Below are positions 4,999 to 46,115 of a DNA stretch of 49,510 nt, piece by piece. The notes beneath the pieces are model-generated. The model was given only the letters and a program-made list of their open reading frames with translations, was not told where the DNA came from and did not search any database. The first letter of the stretch is position 1. Every line of letters starts with the position of its first letter. Location of the stretch: the NCBI GenBank assembly GCA_019695485.1, contig JAEUAF010000412.1, positions 1 to 49,510 on the forward strand. The letters run 5' to 3'. Both the position numbers and the translations under genes were made by a program. The stretch comes from Sorangium sp. (GTDB lineage: Bacteria; Myxococcota_A; Polyangia; Polyangiales; Polyangiaceae).

Positions 4999-5814
4999 TC
5001 ACTGAACCTCGAGGCCCGTGATCCATTTCCGTTGCACCCACGTGGCGAGCCATTCACCCACCCGTTCGCCGACCAGGACTGTGGCCTCGGCGCCCAGTGC
5101 GCATGCGCTTTCGCAGGCTGCTTCGAGGGAAAGGCCCTCGGAAAATCCTTCGAGCAATCTGAACGCCACGGGATCCAGGTACTCATGAAGAATCGCGAGC
5201 TCGGCGCGGAAAACTACCAAATTCGACGGGGCACGCTGGGGCAGCGGGACCTCGTCATCACCGGCCAACAAGATGCGCTTTCTAAGGTCTACGACTGGAT
5301 AGGCGAGCCGCAGCAGGCGGAGCCCGGATTGGAGGCGTAGCCGAGCTCGCTCAAGGCCGTCCTCGCCGAAATGGGCCAGTTCGTCCGGCGTCAGCGCGCG
5401 CGGATCTTCTGCGTCGAAGACATCTGCGTACACCCACTCGAGGCGCGCCATGTCCGACACGAGTTCGTGCTGCTCGATCCAGCGGCAGTCCGCGACGAAC
5501 CGAGGCAGCTTGTCTCCCAGATCCCGCAGCGTAAAGCTGGTCGGAGGATGTGCGCCCAGATATTCCTCGACCAGCCGCTCCCAGCCTGATTGGCCGAGAA
5601 TTCCGCCCACCCCTGGGAAATCCTCGACCAGGGCTTGGGTGTGGCGCAGCCAAAATTGTTCTCGATAGATTTCGAGCTGCTCCACTGGGGACAGGCGGTC
5701 GTTGCCAGCGAGGTGTTGCTCGGCGAACGCCGTAGCAACGGAATCGCGCGTCAAGCTCCGCCGGTACAGCAGCTTTTCGGCGAGTTCAGCTTGCAACTCA
5801 CTGAGCTCCGTCAT
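4999..5814 (-). CDS. bufC: DUF2063/HvfC-BufC-like partner protein of MNIO RiPP system
   Basis: LYRRSLTRDSVATAFAEQHLAGNDRLSPVEQLEIYREQFWLRHTQALVEDFPGV resembles the DUF2063 N-terminal domain; start overlaps DUF692 stop (ATGA). Confidence 0.8.
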   Translation of the reverse strand: MTELSELQAELAEKLLYRRSLTRDSVATAFAEQHLAGNDRLSPVEQLEIYREQFWLRHTQALVEDFPGVGGILGQSGWERLVEEYLGAHPPTSFTLRDLGDKLPRFVADCRWIEQHELVSDMARLEWVYADVFDAEDPRALTPDELAHFGEDGLERARLRLQSGLRLLRLAYPVVDLRKRILLAGDDEVPLPQRAPSNLVVFRAELAILHEYLDPVAFRLLEGFSEGLSLEAACESACALGAEATVLVGERVGEWLATWVQRKWITGLEVQ

Positions 5815-6878
5815 TCAGAGGCCAGGGGAGTTTCAGCAGTCAGAATTTCGCGCGGCCCGCCCTGCTGCCAGCCGGGACGCTCCGTGCAGGACACGCGGCG
5901 TGCCTCGGCGAGCGCTTCTCGAATTGCCGTTTCGTCGACGGAAGTGGCGCCCCGGGCCCGCGCCTCGAGGGCTCGTTGCCGTTCGCTGCGAGCGCGTTCG
6001 CCTTCGGCGTGAAGCACCTCGAAGGGAGGAATTTCATCATCCCATTCGATGAGCGTTGGCACGCTGCCCGCGTGCTCGATCGTGAGCCGGTAGAGCGCCC
6101 AGACTGGCTCGGTAACGTGGCCGCGGTGGGTATCGATGATGTATTTTCCGAAGTTCGTGTGGGATGCGAGGTGGATCTGAAGAATCCGCTCGTGGGGAAT
6201 CTGCTTCACGAACGCCACGGGGTCGAAGCCGTGGTTGTAGGCTGAGACGTAAACATTGTTCACGTCGAACAAAATTCCTATCTGCGCGCGCTCGGCGATC
6301 TCAGCGACGAATTCCCACTCGGACAAAGTGCTGCCTCGGTAGGTGAGGTAGCTCGAGGTATTTTCCAGCGCGAAAGGCAGCTCCAGAAAGTCTTGAACCT
6401 GGCGCGCCCGTTCCACCACGCGCGAGATTGCCTGCCGCGTGTAAGGGAGCGGCAGCAGGTCGTGGAGGTGGGCACCCCCTGCTCCACACCAACAGAAGTG
6501 GTCGCTGACCCAGGGCGTTCGAGTTTCTCGCGTCAGGGCCCTGAGGCGCCGCAAGTAGTCGACATCCAGGGCCTCGGGTCCCCCGATGTTGAGCGACACC
6601 CCATGCTGCACCACTCTGTACGACTCAAGGACGCGCCCGAGGTGGTAGCGAGGCCTACCTCCGGGCACCATGAAGTTTTCGCTGATGATCTCGAAGAAAT
6701 CGACTGCCGGCCGCTCTTTGAGAATATGCGAATAGTGCGGCACGCGCAGCCCCAGGCCGATGCCCAAATCCGTGCCCCGGGTCGAGTTTGATGCGGGGAG
6801 GGTCGAGTTTCGAGGCAAGGCGGCGATCCCGGAAAGATGCGGCGTCAGCAGTGTGCATCGCCAGCGGCAAAGTCCCAA
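5811..6878 (-). CDS. bufB: DUF692 family multinuclear non-heme iron-dependent oxidative enzyme (MNIO, BufB-like)
   Basis: GIGLGLRVPHYSHIL, FFEIISENFM, SDHFCW, LENTSSYL, FDVNNVYVSAYNHGFD, IEWDDEIP motifs; the true start may be downstream of 6878. Confidence 0.88.
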   Translation of the reverse strand: MGLCRWRCTLLTPHLSGIAALPRNSTLPASNSTRGTDLGIGLGLRVPHYSHILKERPAVDFFEIISENFMVPGGRPRYHLGRVLESYRVVQHGVSLNIGGPEALDVDYLRRLRALTRETRTPWVSDHFCWCGAGGAHLHDLLPLPYTRQAISRVVERARQVQDFLELPFALENTSSYLTYRGSTLSEWEFVAEIAERAQIGILFDVNNVYVSAYNHGFDPVAFVKQIPHERILQIHLASHTNFGKYIIDTHRGHVTEPVWALYRLTIEHAGSVPTLIEWDDEIPPFEVLHAEGERARSERQRALEARARGATSVDETAIREALAEARRVSCTERPGWQQGGPREILTAETPLASE

Positions 6879-6996
6879 GCCCGTGCCCGCGATGGAAGCC
6901 GATGACTGCTGCCTTTTCAGGCCATGGCCACCGGCGCGCCTACGGGCACGGGCGCTGAAGGGTCAGCGCTTCAACTCGAGCGCTTCCTGGTGACCA

Positions 6997-7323
6997 CTAC
7001 TTCGGACAGTGGGCGTTGCAGCCGCCTTTGCCCTTGCAGGAGTTCTGGCCTTTGCAGCCGTTGTCAGCGGTCTTGCAGTCGCCTTTGCCCTTGCACTCGT
7101 TCTGCCCCTTGCAGCAGGACTTGCCTTCGGCCGCAGCCGCGGCCGGGTCCGCTTTGGCATCCGCCGCCGGAGCGGCGGCGTCGCCCGCCGGTGCCGGCGC
7201 AGCTGCCGCGGGCGCCGCGGGGGACTCGGCTGGAGGCGTGCTGCCGCCGCAACCCGAGAGAGCTCCCAACATCAGGCCAGCGCTAGCGGCCGCCAACATC
7301 GACTTCGAAAAATGGATCGCCAT
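6997..7323 (-). CDS. bufA: BufA-like Cys-rich lipoprotein precursor (bufferin-type RiPP metallophore)
   Basis: Signal/lipobox LSGCGGS, Ala/Pro linker, C-terminal EGKSCCKGQNECKGKGDCKTADNGCKGQNSCKGKGGCNAHCPK; AGGAGAA RBS; adjacent to DUF692/DUF2063 genes. Confidence 0.82.
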   Translation of the reverse strand: MAIHFSKSMLAAASAGLMLGALSGCGGSTPPAESPAAPAAAAPAPAGDAAAPAADAKADPAAAAAEGKSCCKGQNECKGKGDCKTADNGCKGQNSCKGKGGCNAHCPK

Positions 7324-7603
7324 GTCTTCTCCTGTTTCCCTTCGTTTTCGCGAATCACGGACGTGGGCCTCCGCGCCTTACGACGCGGATGCGGGATGGT
7401 TTCTCGCCGTGTGAACGCGCCCTTCGCTGGGCGTCACACGGCTCGACGGCCGTTCCCGGCAGCCCTTTCCTGCCAGTCTATCTGCTACGATGCTTTGGGC
7501 GAAAGTTTCGGCTCACGCTAGTGCTCGTTTTGAGTACGATCCGCGTCCGCTCTCGGATCGGATCTCACTCCCTGAGTTGCCTCCCACTCCTTGAGGCGCC
7601 CCC

Positions 7604-30927: not shown

Positions 30928-31845
30928 TCAGCGGATCGCGACGATGCAGCAGCCGAGTGAGCAAAATTGGTCAATCGGGCAGGCGGGCAAGTCCGGCCCG
31001 CAGACGGTCTCTCCGGCGTCGCAGGTGTAAGCCGGGGGCGGCGGCGTACCGTCGGGCGGGGTGGCAGGTGTGCAGCTCGCCGGCAGGTCTGCGGCAGTTT
31101 TTCCCGCACAGAGTTCACACTCGCCGCAATCGTTGCCGCACTGGACGCTCTTCTGACAGCGCGGGCAGGCTTTGGTGTCGCCAACGTTGGCGAGTGAACA
31201 GGTCGCGCTCGCCAAGACGTCCACCGAGCTGCCGTCGCTCAGTGCGACCGAGCAACACCCGAAGCAGTCGCAGCCGTTCTGGGTCAGCGGGCTGCAGAAT
31301 TTGATGCACGCGGCGGTGACGGAACACGCCGGATCCGTACTCGGCAATTTGCCGGTGAGACAATCCGTGCTGTAGCGACAGCCGTCATCACCCGCGCCTG
31401 AATTGCCATCGAAGAAGCAGTCTTGCCACTTGGGATCGCGATTGTCTCCGGGAATGCCGGTCGCATACGAGCTTTCGTCGTTGTCGAGCGGGCCGGTGCA
31501 CTCTGGGTCGAAGCCGTCGATCAGACCGTCCCCATCGTCGTCGATACCGTTATTGCACTGCGAGCTCGCAGCGCTGGCGCCTCCGGAGCTCGCAGCGCTA
31601 GCGCCTCCCGAGCTCGTTGCGGTTGCGACAGAGCCTCCTTGGGCGCTGCCAGTGGTTGCCGCGGAGCCGCCCTGGCTGGAAAGCTTCCCGCCAAAGCTCA
31701 CCACGCTGGACCCTGCGCCGCCGCTTGAGTCCGTACTACTAGTGGAGCTGCCTCCGCAGCCCACATTGAAGAGCCCGAGGCTCAGGACAAAGCCCAGTGC
31801 GGCCGCCGGGGCAAGCCGCGCCTTCTGCAGAGGTGAGGGGAGCAT
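30928..31845 (-). CDS. Cys-rich lipoprotein (paralogue of 34382-35284)
   Basis: Lipobox FNVGCGGS, Ser/Gly/Ala linker, [31 protein letters not shown]. Confidence 0.8.
31562..31609. repeat. 24-bp tandem duplication within lipoprotein linker
   Basis: gagctcgcagcgctggcgcctccg / gagctcgcagcgctagcgcctccc; encodes SGGASAAS twice. Confidence 0.9.
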
Positions 31846-31997
31846 CGCCAGGGTAGGTGGCAACGACACAGCCGGTTTTCTGAACGGCGGCTCAGAATCT
31901 TTTCGGTCGCGAAATTGCCCTACGCAAAGGCCGCGCTTTCCGCGGCGAGCGAAAAACCGAGGCGCCGCAGGCACCTCCGATACTAAAGTCACGCGTC

Positions 31998-33047
31998 GTG
32001 AACGCCCGGTTCCCCCTACGCCACGCGCTCGGGCTGCTGCTCGTGGCCGCGCCCGCTGCGGCGGCGCCACACGCCCCCGCGGAGCTCGCGCTCGAGCGTG
32101 GCGCTGACGCTGGCCAGTGTATCGACGCGGCGCACCTGGTCTCGAGCGTCGAACGGCGTCTGCATCGCAAGGTCTTCTATCCCGAGGCGAAGGCGGAGCT
32201 TCGCCTTACTGTGCGGTTGCTGCGCCGCGCCGAGGCCTGGGTGGCGGAGATTTCGCTCGCCGATGCGCTGGGTCAGCTCGGCGAGCGCGAGCTCACGACG
32301 CGGGCTCGCCACTGTTCGGCGCTCGACGATTCCCTCGCGCTGATCGTGTCCCTGTTGGTCGACACGCCGCCCGAGCGCCCTTCAGAGCTCGCGAAACCGA
32401 GCGCACCGAGCAGAGCCGCGGCTTCGAATGCGGCCGAGCCGACGTCTCGACCCAACGCGCCCCCAACGGCGAGTCCTCGCGCGACGCCGCTCGAGATCCC
32501 GGCGGAGACGCTGGCGCCCCGAGAACCTTGGCAAATCGACGCCGCTGTGGGCGTTTTCGCGGGCTACGGCTTGCTCCCGGAACTGGCGTTCGGTCCCGAG
32601 CTCATGGCGGGCTTTACTCCACCCCGGGGTCCACTCTTCCGGGTGGTAGGGGATTTTTCGCTGCCGAAGGAGAGCTCACTCGACGGGCGCGCCGCTGGGG
32701 TGCGTGTCTCCCTCCAGCGCTTGGGGCTCGATGTCTGCGCGAAAGTGTTCACTCGGCCGGTGCTTGGGGTGTCGTTGTGTGCGGGACAACGCCTTGCGCG
32801 CGTTCGGTCTTCCGGTTTTGGATTCGTAGAGAACCGGGACGATAGCCGTGTTGTGCTCTCGCTCGCCGCGGGCGCCGACGCGCTGATTCCGCTCGGACGG
32901 TACCTTGGGATCGCCCTGGGTGCTGGGGGCGAAGCCCTGCTCAATCGTCTCCAATTCGTGGTCATCGAGGCGAACGGCACGCAAGGCGTGGCAGAAAGCA
33001 GCCGGACGGCGGGCATCGTCAGAATCGGCTTGGCGGGGCGGATTTGA
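31998..33047 (+). CDS. Hypothetical secreted/outer-membrane-like protein
   Basis: Signal peptide [17 protein letters not shown]; Pro/Ala linker; C-terminal Gly-rich alternating hydrophobic segments; GTG start. Confidence 0.65.
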
Positions 33048-33648: not shown

Positions 33649-34385
33649 CAACCGCTCCTGATCCGCCACGGCTGAGCGCGGGCGACGCCGAGTCCCCCGA
33701 GCTGTCTGCGTTGTTCCGTGCGGGCGAAGCGGACCTGCCGAGTGGCGCCCAATTGCGTGCATTGCAAGCGCGGCTCGGGCCAGTGCTCGCGCCGGCGGGT
33801 GGTGCCGGGGGGGACCTGCGACGGTTTCTGAAGGTGCCTCGCGTCGGGTTCAAGCTCGGCGCGCTGGTCGGCTTGGGTGTCGCGCTCAGCGTCGCGCTGC
33901 GTTCGGCCACGGTCTCGACGCCGAGCGCGGTGCCCTCCGTGTCGAGCGCGCACGCACTGTCTCCAAGCGCGGCAGCGACGGCTCCGTTCTCGGAGAACGC
34001 TCCGCCCGCGCCAAGCGCCCAACCCGTTGAGACTACTCCCGAGGTGTTGCCCGAGCCGTCGTTGGCGCCACCTGAAACGGCCTCTTCGGCGGCGACCTCG
34101 CGGGGCAATCGCGTGCCGCAACCGGGCTCGGTCAGCGAAGCCGCGCTTCTCGAGCAAGCGCGGCGCGCGCTGAATTCCGACCCGGCACGCGCGCTGGCAC
34201 TCACACGTCAATATCAGCTCAAGTTTCCGAATGGCGTGTTGGGGCAAGAGCGCGAAGTGATCGCCATCGAGGCGTTGCGCCGGCTCGGTCGCACCACGGA
34301 AGCGAGCGAGCGCGCTCGGTCTTTTTCGACGAGCTACCCGGACTCCGCGCATCGACGCGCGGTCGAGACAGGGCGCGCTCCGTGA
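33645..34385 (+). CDS. Single-TM protein coupled to ECF sigma factor (putative membrane regulator/anti-sigma)
   Basis: ATGA overlap with sigma gene; central TM VGFKLGALVGLGVALSVALRS; C-term helical/TPR-like LLEQARRALNSDPARALALTRQYQLKFPNGVLGQEREVIAIEALRRLGR. Confidence 0.65.
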   Translation: MTTAPDPPRLSAGDAESPELSALFRAGEADLPSGAQLRALQARLGPVLAPAGGAGGDLRRFLKVPRVGFKLGALVGLGVALSVALRSATVSTPSAVPSVSSAHALSPSAAATAPFSENAPPAPSAQPVETTPEVLPEPSLAPPETASSAATSRGNRVPQPGSVSEAALLEQARRALNSDPARALALTRQYQLKFPNGVLGQEREVIAIEALRRLGRTTEASERARSFSTSYPDSAHRRAVETGRAP

Positions 34386-35284
34386 AGTGCGGCCGTGCGC
34401 GGGCTCTGCTCCTTTTATGGGTCGGGGCGGGCGCGGGCTGTTCCGAGCAGGTCGCAGTGGGTTCGGACCTTGCACTCTCCCACGCTGGAGGCACCGCCAA
34501 TGGCGGTGCGGGCGGGGCGGCGGCAGCCGGCAGCGCCGGAAGTTCGATGGCCGGGAGCGCAGCGGCCGGCGCGGCCGCCTGCACGCAGAAGACGTGCGGC
34601 GGCAAGCTCTACGCGTGCGGCGATTGCCTCGACAACGACGGCGATGGAGCGATTGACGAACTCGACGGCGAGTGTTTGGGGCCGTGTGACGACGCGGAAG
34701 ATGCGTACTACGCAGGGTTGCACGGTCAAAACAGCGCCGCGTGTCACCAGGATTGCTACTTCGACAACGATGCTGGCCCGGGCAACGACCGCTGTGACTG
34801 GACCTCCACTTGCGACCCACTCTCTGTCGCCCCGAACTTCCCACCCAGCGGGGATGCCAAGTGCGCCTATGATTCCGCCACGCTGAGCCAAGGCAGTTCG
34901 TGTCAGGACTTGCTCACTGTGCAGCCGCAAGTATGCGAGGACGTGTGTCTCCCGTTGACGCCGAACGGCTGTGATTGTTTTGGCTGTTGCGAGCTGCCCG
35001 CGCGGAGCGGACGCTTCGTGTGGATTGGCAGTGACGTTACGCCGCGCTGCGACGCCGCGCATCTCGGGGACGCCTTGTCGTGTCCGCCGTGCACGCCCGT
35101 GCCCTCCTGCTTCAACCGTTGCGATCCGTGCGAGCGCTGCGTTGGCGGTGGCGGCGTCGCGTCCTCGTGTCAGTCCGGTTCGATGCCCGCTTGTCCCGCG
35201 GGCGTTACGGCGTGCGATTCGAGCAACGGCTGCGGAACGAGCGGCTATTGCCTCACCGGCTGCTGCGTCGACGTGCCGCGCTGA
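34382..35284 (+). CDS. Cys-rich lipoprotein (paralogue of 30928-31845)
   Basis: GTGA overlap with preceding gene; lipobox GAGCSEQ, Gly/Ala linker, [28 protein letters not shown]. Confidence 0.8.
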   Translation: MKCGRARALLLLWVGAGAGCSEQVAVGSDLALSHAGGTANGGAGGAAAAGSAGSSMAGSAAAGAAACTQKTCGGKLYACGDCLDNDGDGAIDELDGECLGPCDDAEDAYYAGLHGQNSAACHQDCYFDNDAGPGNDRCDWTSTCDPLSVAPNFPPSGDAKCAYDSATLSQGSSCQDLLTVQPQVCEDVCLPLTPNGCDCFGCCELPARSGRFVWIGSDVTPRCDAAHLGDALSCPPCTPVPSCFNRCDPCERCVGGGGVASSCQSGSMPACPAGVTACDSSNGCGTSGYCLTGCCVDVPR

Positions 35285-39381: not shown

Positions 39382-39633
39382 GATGACTCTCTGGACGGCC
39401 GTGCGGGGCTACGGCTGAAGGGGTGAGCTCGCGCGCGTGTGGGGCGATGTGCGCCGCACCACTGGCGGTGGCGACGGTGGGCCCGAGCAGCAGGGCCTGG
39501 TTTCAAGTGAGGCCCTGTGTTCTTTGTTGGTGGATGCAGGTCAGCGGTTCTGACGCTTCAAGACGACGACAGTGCCGCCGTCGTTCCCTGCTACGAGCCG
39601 CGCGGCTGAGCCTCGCGCTAAAGGGGCGCTTTG

Positions 39634-41160
39634 ATGAATAGTGAACCGCGAGAGCTGTTGCTCACTGGGCAGGCGCTGCGAACCCTCGAGATTGAGGCTG
39701 TCGCGCGTGGGGGCTGGGCCGTGCGATTGAGTGCGGAGGCGCTCGAGAACTTGGAGCGTTCGCAGCAGCGGTTAGCAGATGCCATCCAGCGCGGCGAGGT
39801 AATCTATGGCGTCAACACCGGATTCGGGTCGCTGGCACAGAAGCGGCTCGACGGCGACATGTTGCGAGACGTGCAGAGAAACCTGATCTTGTCTCACGCC
39901 GCGGGCGTGGGCGAGCCGCTCGCCGTCGAGGTCGTGCGCGCCATGCTGCTATTGCTGGTGGCCTCGCTCGCGCGTGGTTTTTCTGGCGTGCGCCCGCTCG
40001 TGGCCGAGCGCATCGTCGCATTGCTGAACGGCGACGTGACACCGATCGTCCCCGCCCTCGGGTCCGTCGGTGCGTCGGGCGACTTGGCACCCCTTGCGCA
40101 CGCCGCGCTGGTCTTGATCGGCGAAGGCGAGGCACTGATCGCGGGCGAGCGCGTGAGCGGCGCCGAAGCATTGTCGCGCCTCGGGCTTCAGCCGCTCGAA
40201 CTCGGGGCAAAGGAAGGGCTCGCGCTGGTGAACGGGACACACCTGATGGCGGCTCAAGCGGCGCTGTTTTTTGCGGACGCCGAGCGACTGATCGCAGCCG
40301 CGCTGTGCGCCGCCGCGATGTCGATCGATGCTTGTCGTGGGAGCGATGCATTTTTGGACCCGCGCGTGCACCAAGTTCGCGGTCAGCTCGGGCAGCTCGA
40401 GGTCGCGCAACGCATTTCCGCGCTGATCAAAGGCAGCCAGATCGTTCCCAGTCACCTCCACGATGATCCTCGCGTGCAAGACCCGTATTCGTTGCGCTGC
40501 GTGCCTCAGGTGGTCGGCGCGGCTCTCGATGTATTGGGCTTTGCGCGAGGCGTGGTTGAGCGAGAGTTCGGTGCCGTGACCGACAATCCGCTGGTGTTCG
40601 AGGCGGACTCCGGACGATCGATCATTTCTGCTGGCAATTTCCACGGCATGCCGCTCGCGGTCGCGCTGGACAGCGCCGTGATCGGACTCGCCCATGTGGC
40701 GGGGATCGCGGAGCGGCGCGTGTACTACATACTTGCCGCTTCCGATGCCGAAAATCCGCTGAATCCGCACTTGTCGCCGTCGCCCGGCTTGCACTCGGGC
40801 CTGATGATCACGCAGTACGTCGCGGCGGCGTGCTGCAACGAGATCGTGGGTCTTACGCTGCCGTCGAGCGCCATGAATCTTCCGACCAGCGCCGGCATGG
40901 AAGACTATAACTCGTTCGGCGCTCGCTCTGCAGCCAAGGCGCGACGAGCCTTGGAGCTTACGAGAGCTGTGGTAGCGATCGAACTCTTGTGTTCCGCGGA
41001 GGCGCTCGAGTATCAACGGCCGTTGCGTTCGGGGCCGGGTGTCGAGCGCGCGTACGAGAGCGTGCGTCGCGTTGTGTCCCGGCGCGCGGCAGACCGGCCC
41101 CCTGCGCCCGACATCGCGGCAATCTCAGCGCTGATTGCCGAAGGCTGCTTTCAGGGTTGA
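39634..41160 (+). CDS. hutH: Histidine ammonia-lyase
   Basis: YGVNTGFGSLAQKRL, GSVGASGDLAPLAH (MIO), NGTHLMAA, GNFHGMPLA, SSAMNLPTSAGMEDYNSFG. Confidence 0.95.
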   Translation: MNSEPRELLLTGQALRTLEIEAVARGGWAVRLSAEALENLERSQQRLADAIQRGEVIYGVNTGFGSLAQKRLDGDMLRDVQRNLILSHAAGVGEPLAVEVVRAMLLLLVASLARGFSGVRPLVAERIVALLNGDVTPIVPALGSVGASGDLAPLAHAALVLIGEGEALIAGERVSGAEALSRLGLQPLELGAKEGLALVNGTHLMAAQAALFFADAERLIAAALCAAAMSIDACRGSDAFLDPRVHQVRGQLGQLEVAQRISALIKGSQIVPSHLHDDPRVQDPYSLRCVPQVVGAALDVLGFARGVVEREFGAVTDNPLVFEADSGRSIISAGNFHGMPLAVALDSAVIGLAHVAGIAERRVYYILAASDAENPLNPHLSPSPGLHSGLMITQYVAAACCNEIVGLTLPSSAMNLPTSAGMEDYNSFGARSAAKARRALELTRAVVAIELLCSAEALEYQRPLRSGPGVERAYESVRRVVSRRAADRPPAPDIAAISALIAEGCFQG

Positions 41161-41319
41161 AAGCGCTGAGGCAATTCGAAAGCGCGCGCCGGCGCCGCGA
41201 ACCCGCGCGGATTGCAAAGAAAGTACCAAAAGGTCGGGCGCTTGCGGCTCAAGGCGACACTTTTTCAGCCGTTCACCCTCCATGCTTACGTTCCGGCGCC
41301 GGTAGCCGTTTTAGGCTCT

Positions 41320-42198
41320 ATGCGGGCAGGGCGTTCTGCTCGCTTTTTCATGAACCGAGAACTGAGGCGAAGGGCCCCGGAGGGCATGCAGGGACTTTCG
41401 GAGATCACCGAGAGCCTGGTTCCTCTATTGGTTTCGCGGGCTCCCGCGGCGCGCCCCCGCACCCAAGTCGTCACGCCAAGTCGCGTGCGCATGGCCGTCT
41501 TGAGTGGGGTTGCGGGCTTCGTGGATGCGGCGGGATTCGTCACCTTGGCGGGCTTGTTTCCAGCGCACATCACGGGGGAGTTGGTGGGTGCAGCGGCGGG
41601 CATGTCGGCGGCCAGTGGCGCGGTGGAGGCGTCGCGTCTATCCGTGATCGCGGTCTTCCTGGGTGCGGTCGTGGTGGGCGCTCTAGTCTCGCGAGCGTTT
41701 CGGCAACGGGGAAGGTCACCATTGGCCGCCCTGTTCGGGCTGATGGCCCTCTTGTTGCTGCTTTTCAGCGCGACAGGCGGGCTGCTGCCGTGGCTGGTTC
41801 GCGCTGAGAGTCCGTTCAACGAGTCGTTGAAGCGCTGCAGCGTGGTGGCGGCGATGGGGCTCCAAAACGTGGTGATGCGCCACGCGCTGACGAGCTCTTG
41901 TCCGACCACGGTGATGACTGGCAACTTGACGCAGTTCATCGTCGAGCTCGTCGAGCTGCTGCTCCCGCGGATGAAGGTTCCTGGTCGCGTCTCCGAGCGA
42001 CCATCCAAGTCTCAGGTCCGCTTGCGTGTGCTCGGCACGGCGCTCGGCGCATTTCTGCTGAGCGCAACACTCGGCGGCGCACTCACCTCGAAGTTTGGCG
42101 CGATCAGCGTATCGCTGCCCGCCTTGGCTGTCGCACTGCTTGCCATTCGCGAAGTGCGTTACCCGACCGCGCCGACCCGCACAGGAACGCTCTTCTAG
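41320..42198 (+). CDS. DUF1275 (YoaK-like) membrane protein
   Basis: [29 protein letters not shown]...[26 protein letters not shown]; several TM helices; exact start uncertain. Confidence 0.82.
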
Positions 42199-42319
42199 GA
42201 AGCGCGGCTCGGCGCGCCGGCAGACCACAGCCGCCTACCTTGGCCCGTCGGCTACTCCGCCTGAACGATGGCCGCGACTCGAGCGAAACGCTAAGTTCTG
42301 CTTTCGAAGAAGGGTCCCC

Positions 42320-43999
42320 ATGGTCAGCATTCTGAGTTCCTCCTCGGTTGGCGCGCGGCCCGTACGTGCGGCTCGCGGTTCCGTTCGGACCTGCAAAACC
42401 TGGCAGGCCGAGGCGGCCTTGCGCATGCTCATGAACAATCTGGACCCTGAGGTGGCGGAAGATCCGAATCACCTCGTAGTGTACGGTGGTCGCGGGCAGG
42501 CCGCGCGCTCGTGGGCGGCGTTCGATGCCATCGTGCGCGAGCTCGTCGCGCTCGAATCCGATCAAACGCTGCTGGTCCAATCGGGAAAGCCGGTCGGGGT
42601 GCTGCGCACACACGATGACGCTCCGCGCGTGCTGATCGCCAATAGCAACTTGGTGCCTCATTGGGCCACCGACGAGCACTTCGATGATCTCGCGCGGCGC
42701 GGACTCATCATGTTCGGTCAGATGACGGCCGGGTCCTGGATTTACATCGGGACGCAGGGCATCGTGCAAGGAACCTACGAAACCTTCGCGGAATGTGCTC
42801 GCCAGCACTTCCGTGGCAGCCTTCGCGGTCGACTTTTGGTGACGGCCGGTGCCGGCGGCATGGGCGGGGCGCAGCCGCTTGCCGCTACGATGAACGAGGC
42901 TGTGTGTCTGATTGCGGATGTCGATGCGAGCCGGCTCGAACGGCGCCGCGCCTCGGGCTACCTCGACGAGATCGCCGCCGGCCTCGACGCTGCGATCGAC
43001 CGTGCGCTGTCCGAGCGTGCTGCCGGCGTCGCTGTTTCGATTGGCGTCGCGGTGGACGCACTCACGCTCCTGCAGCGCTTGCTCGATCGCGGCGTGTTGC
43101 CCGACATCGTGACGGACCAGACGCCCGCCCACGACATCCTGAGCTATGTTCCGGCAGGCCATTCAGTTGAGTCAGCGGCACGGCTTCGAGATAGCGACGC
43201 CAAGAGCTATGCGGAGCAGAGCCTCGACACGATGGTCCAGCACGTGCAAAAGCTGGTGGAACTCAAGCGCCGTGGCGCCGTGGTGTTCGACTACGGAAAC
43301 AACCTGCGTGCGCGCGCCGAGCAGCGAGGGTTTGCCGAGGCGTTCGAGTTTCCCGGCTTCGTTCCGGCCTACATTCGGCCCCAGTTTTGCTTGGGGCGTG
43401 GCCCATTCCGCTTCGTCGCGCTCTCCGGCGACGTGCGCGACATCGAGCTCATGGACCGCGAGCTCATTCGCCTGTTTCCCGAAGACACTGGGCTCGCGCG
43501 CTGGCTTTCGCTGGCGGGGGAGCGCATTCAGCACCAGGGCCTGCCGGCGCGGATTTGCTGGCTCGGCCTCGGTCAACGCCAGCGCGCGGGGCTCTTGTTC
43601 AACGATTTGGTGCGGCGCGGGGCGCTGCGAGCCCCGATCGTCATCGGTCGAGATCACCTGGATTGCGGCTCGGTCGCGTCTCCTTATCGAGAGACCGAGG
43701 GCATGCTCGACGGCACGGACGCCGTCAGCGACTGGCCGCTGTTGAACGCTCTGGTCGCGACCGCGAGCGGAGCGTCTTGGGTGAGCCTGCACCATGGCGG
43801 CGGAGTCGGCATTGGATACTCACAGCACGCCGGACAGGTCATCGTTGCGGACGGAACCCCTGAGGCCGCCGGCCGCCTGCTGCGCGTGCTCACCAACGAT
43901 CCGGCGCTTGGCGTCTTGCGTCATGCGGACGCCGGCTACGCCGAAGCCAGCGCGGCCGCGGCTCAGCATGGACTCGCAATCCCCATGGCCCCGCGATGA
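42320..43999 (+). CDS. hutU: Urocanate hydratase
   Basis: [100 protein letters not shown]. Confidence 0.96.
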
Positions 44000-44937
44000 C
44001 GCGCATCCCGCACACGCGGCCAGGCGTTTGGCCGACGCGCCGCGACGATCGCGCGTCGGCCCTGTTCGAGCTCGAGCGGGCGCGTTTCGCTCGCGTAGCC
44101 CTGATCGGCTTGCCTGACGACACCGGCGTTCGGCTAAATGGCGGTCGGCCCGGTGCCGCGCTCGGGCCGCATGCTTTTCGCGCGGCCTTGGCCGGCTTCG
44201 GAACGCCCTACGACGCCGCCACGCGCAGTGTCATCGAGCTTCGTGTGTTCGACGCGGGCGACGTCGAACCCGCAGAAGGGAATGACGAGGCGGCGCTCTT
44301 CGAGACGCACGCGCGCGTCGAAGCGGCGCTGACCGCTCTCCATGAGCTCGGCTTGGTGCCTGCCTGCGTGGGCGGTGGCCACGATCTCAGCTTGCCGAGC
44401 ATTCGAGCGCTGTCACGGCTGTCAGGTGCTAGCTTGGGCGGACTCAACGTCGACGCACATCTCGATGTGCGGAAGCGTGTCGGCTCTGGCATGGCTTTTC
44501 GGCGCCTCATCGAGGAAGAGTGCCTCGCGCCGACGCGCTTCGTCGAGTTCGGGCTGGGTCGCTTCGTGAATGACGAAGCAGATTGCGTGTGGCTCGAGTC
44601 GCTCGGGGCCGAGCTCATCACCGCCGAACAGGTCGCGCGCCGCGAGGTGTCCGTCGAGGCTTGTCTCGGGCGCATCGTTGCGAGTGGGACTAGCTTCGTG
44701 AGCATCGATTTGGACGCCATCGACGCTGCCGCCATGCCCGGCGTGAGCGCGCTGAATCCAGCCGGGCTCGACGTGCACGTCGTGACAGCGCTGGCCGCAG
44801 CGGCAGGCGCCACGAGCGCGGTTCGCCACTTCGACTTGATGGAGCTCTGCCCCGAGCAGGACAGCAGCGGGCGGAGCGCGCGCATCGCGGCGCAGCTCTT
44901 CCTCGCGTATCTCTCGGGGTTTGCGAGGCGCCCTTGA
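43996..44937 (+). CDS. hutG: Formimidoylglutamase/arginase-family ureohydrolase
   Basis: ATGA overlap with hut[42 protein letters not shown] metal-binding motifs. Confidence 0.9.
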
Positions 44938-46115
44938 GCGGCTTTTTGATCCGCGGGGCACGTGTCGTGGCCGGGGACGGCTCGCCGCCAGCGCGCCTGG
45001 ATGTGCGCACGCGCGATGCCGAGATCGTGGCCGTGGGCGAGGCGCTCGCGAGCGAAGCCGGTGAGAGCCTCGTCGACGCGGGGGGGCGCGTGCTGATGCC
45101 CGGCTTCGTCGCTGCCCATACGCATGCGCTGTGGGCTCAGGATCGACTGCACGCTCTCGAGCTCACTCTGCGCGGCGTTTCGTACCCGGATATCGCGCGC
45201 ATGGGTGGCGGCATCTTCTCGACGGTGCGCGCCGTGCGCGAGGCGTCGGAAGCGGAGCTTGTCGCAAACCTGACGGCGCGACTCAGAGTGATGCTCGCCG
45301 AGGGCACCACCAGCGTCGAAGTCAAATCCGGCTACGGCCTCGACACCGAAAACGAACTCAAAATGCTGCGCGTGATTCAGCGCTGCGGAGAGGCATTCCC
45401 GGGAACGGTGGTCGCGACGGCGCTGCTCGGTCACGCGATTGACCCGGACGAACCCGCGTTCGTGGAGCGCACGCTTCGCGAGACGCTGCCGGCCGTTCAC
45501 GCCGAGTTGCCACGCATCGCAATCGACGCCTACTGCGAGCAAGGCGCTTGGTCGCTCGCCGATTGTCGGCGCTTGTTCGAGCGTGCCCGCGAGCTAGGTC
45601 ATCCGCTGCGCATTCACGCCGATCAATTCGAGCGACAGGGCGCCCTCGGCTTGGCGCTGTCGCTCGGCTTTCGGAGCGTCGACCACTTGGAGCGGAGCTC
45701 GGCTTCGGAGCTCGAACAGCTGGCGAGGAGCGCAACCTTCGGGGTGATTCTGCCGGCCAGCGCCTTTCACCTCGACGGCTGCTACGCGAATGTTCGCGGC
45801 TTTCTCGATGCAGGTGGCAAGCTGGTCTTGGCCAGCAACTGTAACCCAGGTTCAGCGCCGACCTCCTCGATGCCATTCGTGATTGCCCTCGCCGTGCGCC
45901 ACTCCGGCGTTCGGATAGACGAAGCCATCACCGCGACGACCAAGAACCCAGCGCTCCTGCTAGGCCTCACCGATCGCGGCGTCGTCCGTGCCGGGGCGCG
46001 CGCAGATTTGCTCTTGCTGCGCCACACGGACGAACGCCTGCTGGCCTATGAGTTCGGGGGTAACCCGGTGAGCTGGGTGATGGCAGGGGGCAGGGTAGTG
46101 CGCGAGGACGCTTAG
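44934..46115 (+). CDS. hutI: Imidazolonepropionase
   Basis: TTGA overlap with hutG; PGFVAAHTHALWA, TTSVEVKSGYGLDTENELKMLRV, IHADQFE, LASNCNPGSAPTSSM. Confidence 0.93.
   Translation: MSGFLIRGARVVAGDGSPPARLDVRTRDAEIVAVGEALASEAGESLVDAGGRVLMPGFVAAHTHALWAQDRLHALELTLRGVSYPDIARMGGGIFSTVRAVREASEAELVANLTARLRVMLAEGTTSVEVKSGYGLDTENELKMLRVIQRCGEAFPGTVVATALLGHAIDPDEPAFVERTLRETLPAVHAELPRIAIDAYCEQGAWSLADCRRLFERARELGHPLRIHADQFERQGALGLALSLGFRSVDHLERSSASELEQLARSATFGVILPASAFHLDGCYANVRGFLDAGGKLVLASNCNPGSAPTSSMPFVIALAVRHSGVRIDEAITATTKNPALLLGLTDRGVVRAGARADLLLLRHTDERLLAYEFGGNPVSWVMAGGRVVREDA

Follow-up and report, generated by a model that had tools for sequence, protein, structure and literature searches.

Here, we describe three co-directional genes of a Polyangiaceae bacterium that quite probably form a bufferin cassette of the Buf2 type (BufA2-like). 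It would be the lipoprotein form of such a cassette, with a tethered copper peptide as its product. The cassette is a new BufA2-like lipid-anchored bufferin within an already described family and is common in its lineage. Assignment to the bufferin type is supported by sequence comparison, and the chemistry and metal binding are predicted from characterised relatives.

The three genes of the cassette

The host genome has a size of 7.7 Mb in 945 contigs and is 84% complete. Among the open reading frames of the window (the whole stretch of 49,510 nucleotides that was analysed), the three genes are encoded by the minus strand and run in one direction, from the precursor gene (6997..7323) through the MNIO gene (5811..6878) to the DUF2063 gene (4999..5814). 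The stop codon of the MNIO gene and the start codon of the DUF2063 gene overlap in an ATGA at 5811-5814. A lipobox precursor, a DUF692 enzyme and a DUF2063 protein in this order and at these positions, the ATGA overlap and two near-identical copies of CKGQN[E/S]CKGKG[D/G]C in the precursor had all been claimed in the original prediction and were confirmed here. The same holds for the claimed absence of an adjoining DoxX gene, a frequent but non-obligatory member of bufferin clusters: a profile search seeded with the DoxX of the same genome found no homologue in the window. The cassette is not a chance arrangement, as six further Polyangiaceae/Myxococcales loci also have the precursor, MNIO and DUF2063 genes as a conserved group next to pepP.

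The precursor gene begins with ATG, is kept in relatives and encodes a BufA2-like lipoprotein of 108 aa. This protein consists of a signal peptide with a lipobox (L22-S-G-C25), an Ala/Pro linker, two core units and a CNAHCPK end. The signal peptide (aa 1-25, LSGC at 22-25; 7249..7323, minus strand) has the n-region, hydrophobic core and lipobox of a Sec signal, and C25 was invariant across 12 aligned lipobox relatives, in which the adjoining linker was not conserved. The first core unit, CKGQNECKGKGDC (aa 71-83; 7075..7113, minus strand), contains Cys residues that are invariant in the alignments, and the second is CKGQNSCKGKGGC (aa 90-102; 7018..7056, minus strand). Nine Cys are present in total (25, 70, 71, 77, 83, 90, 96, 102 and 106). 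Cys 71, 77, 83, 90, 96 and 102 correspond to the twin CxGxNxCKG pattern of Buf2, which has six or twelve conserved Cys, and Cys 70 and 106 are two extras beyond these six.

An HMM comparison with the BufA models had been proposed along with the original prediction. The best model of the precursor was NCBIfam NF050166 BufA2 (E 6.2e-12), yet its score of 45.6 bits did not reach the cut-off of 60 bits; the protein is hence called BufA2-like and not a confirmed equivalog. It shares with the Buf2/BufA2 bufferins (NF050166; PMC12452194) the Sec-type signal peptide, the twin core, a BufB-type MNIO, a DUF2063-RRE partner and the gene order. It differs from them in scoring under the curated cut-off, in a core of eight Cys that starts with CC and ends with CNAHC, where six are usual, in its lipobox, and in a compact C-terminus that lacks the W-x8-C-like segment of above-cut-off BufA2 members. 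An eight-Cys subtype (CC...CNAHCPK) exists in Polyangiaceae under the current model thresholds, which is of modest novelty.

The second gene encodes an MNIO (DUF692/PF05114) maturase of the BufB type. Its start is uncertain, since the frame has no ATG near the expected start and only TTG codons at 6878, 6818 and 6767. The protein matched PF05114 (E 3.2e-102) and passed the cut-off of NF050167 MNIO_BufB (330.5 bits, cut-off 310), and it was under every cut-off of the HvfB, ApyH, MbnB and ChrH models. By sequence comparison it matched PDB 3bww and TglH (8hci). Over the length covered by the alignments printed for 3bww, TglH and MbnB, its residues H92, H127, E172, D205, N208, H236, D249, H251 and E278 align with identical residues of these solved MNIOs. 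In Cys-Lys MNIOs, Asp replaces Phe250 of FonB (PMC13097082); here, an EWDD motif (within EWDDEIP) puts D281 at the equivalent site, which was placed by motif. It should be noted that this site is occupied by Ala, Glu or Gly in some relatives whose precursors are of the Cys-Lys type. The captophorins fontiphorin, oxazolin (HvfABC) and gonophorin (PMC13097082) also combine an MNIO and a PME1 (DUF2063-RRE) with a Cys-rich exported precursor, but their cores are of the EGKCG (Lys-Cys) type with Phe at the specificity site, whereas the present system has Cys-Lys cores and Asp.

The last gene encodes a DUF2063 partner (PME-type 1) with a C-terminal RRE-like winged helix. It matched PF09836 (E 1.4e-15) and was under the cut-off of the HvfC equivalog model. 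A phmmer search of the partner against PDB gave nothing relevant, and structural matches came from the fold search alone: in Foldseek, its AlphaFold2 model (pLDDT 93.4) matched TglI (8hci/8hi7) and NGO1945 (3dee), as well as the leader-bound RRE of TbiB1 (5v1v) over about 70 residues with a weak E-value. The combination of DUF2063 and an RRE-type domain expected of a PME-type 1 (BufC) protein is therefore seen from PF09836 and the predicted fold, with the TbiB1 match being weak.

Together, the BufB score over the cut-off, the sub-threshold best match to BufA2, the Asp of Cys-Lys enzymes and the PME-type 1 fold support the bufferin-type family that had been proposed. On the other side, we counted against this reading the sub-cut-off BufA2 score with the missing W-x8-C-like segment, the finding of no metal-responsive regulator or further copper gene in the operon, and the fact that Buf2 chemistry was unsolved at the time of the published survey (PMC12452194).

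Signal peptide motif and predicted maturation

Within the signal peptide, the hydrophobic core carries an AxxGLxxG motif (ASAGLMLG, aa 13-20; 7264..7287, minus strand), which is a candidate for leader recognition. Counted in related sequences, A-x-x-G-[LIM]-x-x-[GA] was found in 24 of 34 lipobox MNIO-linked precursors (shuffled mean 1.6) and in 63 of 75 non-lipobox ones (shuffled mean 3.5), compared with 0 of 77 heuristically picked control signal-like N-termini from the same loci. These counts show conservation of the motif in both lipobox and non-lipobox precursors, which fits the published role of the Sec signal peptide as a leader for bufferin and HvfA (PMC12452194, and the statement in PMC13419390 citing Junger 2026). 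As the element recognised by the MNIO partner, the motif is a candidate that is both concrete and testable.

By analogy with characterised relatives, we propose the chemistry and sites of modification, the sequence in which export and lipidation take place, and copper as the bound metal. The precursor would be synthesised in the cytoplasm and probably recognised by the DUF2063-RRE partner, partly via the signal peptide, and the MNIO would oxidise Cys of the CKG units to Cu-binding 5-thiooxazoles. We predict the five Cys-Lys positions (C71, C77, C83, C90 and C96) as the likeliest modified sites. The modified precursor would then undergo Sec export, lipidation at C25 and cleavage by signal peptidase II, which would leave a copper sponge tethered to the membrane through a flexible Ala/Pro linker. 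For NedA and DybA, lipidated products of MNIOs have been obtained in experiments (PMC12636315). These DAG-RiPPs, lipo-NedA and lipo-DybA, share with the present cassette a lipobox precursor beside a cytoplasmic MNIO and the predicted course of modification, export and lipidation; they differ in having EGKCG repeats (NedA) or CPACGMG (DybA), whereas the window precursor has Cys-Lys units and its lipidation is a prediction.

The same cassette might instead yield a lipidated thiooxazole peptide that mainly serves another soft metal (Zn, Cd, Hg or Au) or redox buffering, which we regard as unlikely. Gold-induced gig operons and MerC fusions do occur among bufferin loci (PMC12452194), and extra ligands could come from the C-terminal CNAHC, with His-rich tails (CGGGHDHH) present in some relatives; nevertheless, copper is the metal bound by the bufferins and oxazolins that have been characterised (PMC12452194, PMC13097082). 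A cation diffusion facilitator (CDF; PF01545) gene that lies some 3 kb away (944-1894) would also speak for another metal, but it was not found in the compared stretches of relatives, which end near that distance. Moreover, its strand is opposite to that of the cassette, and three genes (folP, cdaA and ybbR) lie between the two, so that it could be ruled out as an operon member.

Relatives of the precursor and the association with DoxX

The duplicated core, the lipobox and the missing DoxX gene had each been considered as unusual, and all three turned out to be ordinary for this group. Among 68 precursors chosen by profile alone, 67 contained at least two Cys units; therefore, the twin core is the family architecture, and duplication could be ruled out as a novelty. 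In addition, 150 distinct precursors and their neighbours were compiled in a table. As inclusion in this table needed two units, it holds no evidence on duplication, and its signal types come from a regular expression, corrected by hand in a few cases, instead of SignalP. On this basis, 53 of the 70 Myxococcota Buf2-like precursors had a lipobox; Antoine et al. reported lipoprotein signals in about 16% of Buf2, together with six or twelve conserved Cys (PMC12452194).

Of the genomes sampled, 51 of 98 from the family and 46 of 189 from the phylum had BufA2-like matches. Thus, about half of the sampled family genomes carry Buf2-like precursors, mostly with a lipobox. Few matches were seen in the phylum that was sampled through genome G098. 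At least 496 relatives came out of a contig scan, and the 80 best were mostly from Acidobacteriota, Verrucomicrobiota and Polyangiaceae.

For MNIO-linked precursors with enough flanking DNA, a nearby DoxX was present for 56 of 71 precursors without a lipobox and for 1 of 30 with one (Fisher p 3e-13), so that its absence beside a lipobox precursor is the usual condition. A possible addition to the best explanation is that lipidation functionally replaces DoxX, which would serve only soluble bufferins. This strong contrast argues for it, but the contrast is largely one of lineage: within Myxococcota, DoxX was near 1 of 30 lipobox and 4 of 13 non-lipobox precursors (p 0.024). In addition, correlated change of lipobox and DoxX was not significant in independent pairs on the MNIO tree, where the pairs were too few for significance, and counterexamples exist: in L228 a lipobox precursor has DoxX at a distance of 78 bases, and L088 and L093 are orphan lipobox precursors that likewise have a nearby DoxX. 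We therefore consider functional replacement improbable, and reject exclusion of DoxX by the lipobox as an evolutionary rule, since the strong raw counts are not backed once phylogeny is controlled for and the counterexamples speak against it. The link between lipobox and DoxX is an association.

Conservation of the locus and further loci in the genome

The MNIO tree places the MNIO of the window among lipobox cassettes, in a starred clade of seven rows that is nested in a 13-row clade in which all rows have a lipobox. The gene pepP adjoins the cassette in all six other loci examined, with folP on the far side in three of them (L055, L079 and L089). The clade and the shared neighbours point to vertical inheritance of a chromosomal locus. 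One member of the family group and Sorangium cellulosum So ceGT47 have the same locus (L081 and L104), and on this basis the family was taken to be Polyangiaceae. A search for regulators and promoters found only a short shared block, TAGCAGATAGACT (7475..7487, minus strand), in the intergenic region between the divergent bufA and pepP, which might be a promoter element of either gene. The sequence CAGATAGACT is common to 4 of 7 orthologous bufA/pepP intergenic regions, which share the block in part.

The host genome contains five MNIOs and three BufA2-like precursors. One of them belongs to a canonical locus of DoxX, BufA2, MNIO and DUF2063 genes (contig C771, 3142-5830; L009, G000). This BufA2 has an ordinary non-lipobox signal peptide and the same twin units as the window precursor. 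We counted such a paralogue, with the twin motif and an adjoining DoxX in the canonical layout, in favour of the bufferin reading. A sigma-factor-like gene follows the locus. Another of the three precursors, on contig C708, is an orphan with a lipobox. With lipobox and non-lipobox paralogues in one genome, tethered bufferins could be compared cleanly with soluble ones.

MNIO-less lipobox precursors are common in Polyangiaceae (L010, L051, L056-L061, L090, L097 and L110). Genomes with such orphan lipobox precursors had MNIO genes elsewhere in 13 of 13 cases checked; no MNIO genes were seen in a Phycisphaerales MAG (G101). The frequency of these orphans, and the number of MNIOs and precursors in the host genome, would be compatible with a precursor that is an unmodified metallothionein-like lipoprotein, with the MNIO pair acting on other genomic substrates. 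However, the precursor, MNIO and DUF2063 genes are co-directional and occur together in 7 of 7 loci of the nearest MNIO clade, and the core motif of the signal peptide is common to other MNIO-linked precursors, making an unmodified lipoprotein very improbable compared with a modified bufferin. A broader proposal is that the standard bufferin of Myxococcota would be a lipid-anchored thiooxazole copper sponge, with an eight-Cys subtype in Polyangiaceae (CC...CxxHC), tethering in the role of DoxX and orphans modified in trans by MNIOs elsewhere. Taken as a whole, this proposal is doubtful.

Two further loci contain MNIO and DUF2063-type genes beside other lipoproteins. In L011 (contig C504, 2200-4768), the two genes adjoin a lipoprotein in which CKG/CKGMNSCGGAGC motifs precede a CxxCH haem-binding-like segment; it may be a fusion of a bufferin with a cytochrome. 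In L012 (contig C935, 2126-4308), an Ala/Pro-rich lipoprotein-like ORF ending in KGGCGAGTCG precedes the genes for an MNIO (ERDNDVP) and a DUF2063-like protein; this is a different precursor type. Elsewhere in the window, two Cys-rich lipoprotein-like ORFs on opposite strands (30928-32070 and 34382-35284) both have an NGCDCFGCC-type pattern and appear to be paralogues. Translations of 39631-46115 read as an apparent histidine-utilisation cluster (HutH, HutU, formimidoylglutamase-like and HutI), with a membrane-protein-like ORF (41212-42198) between hutH and hutU.
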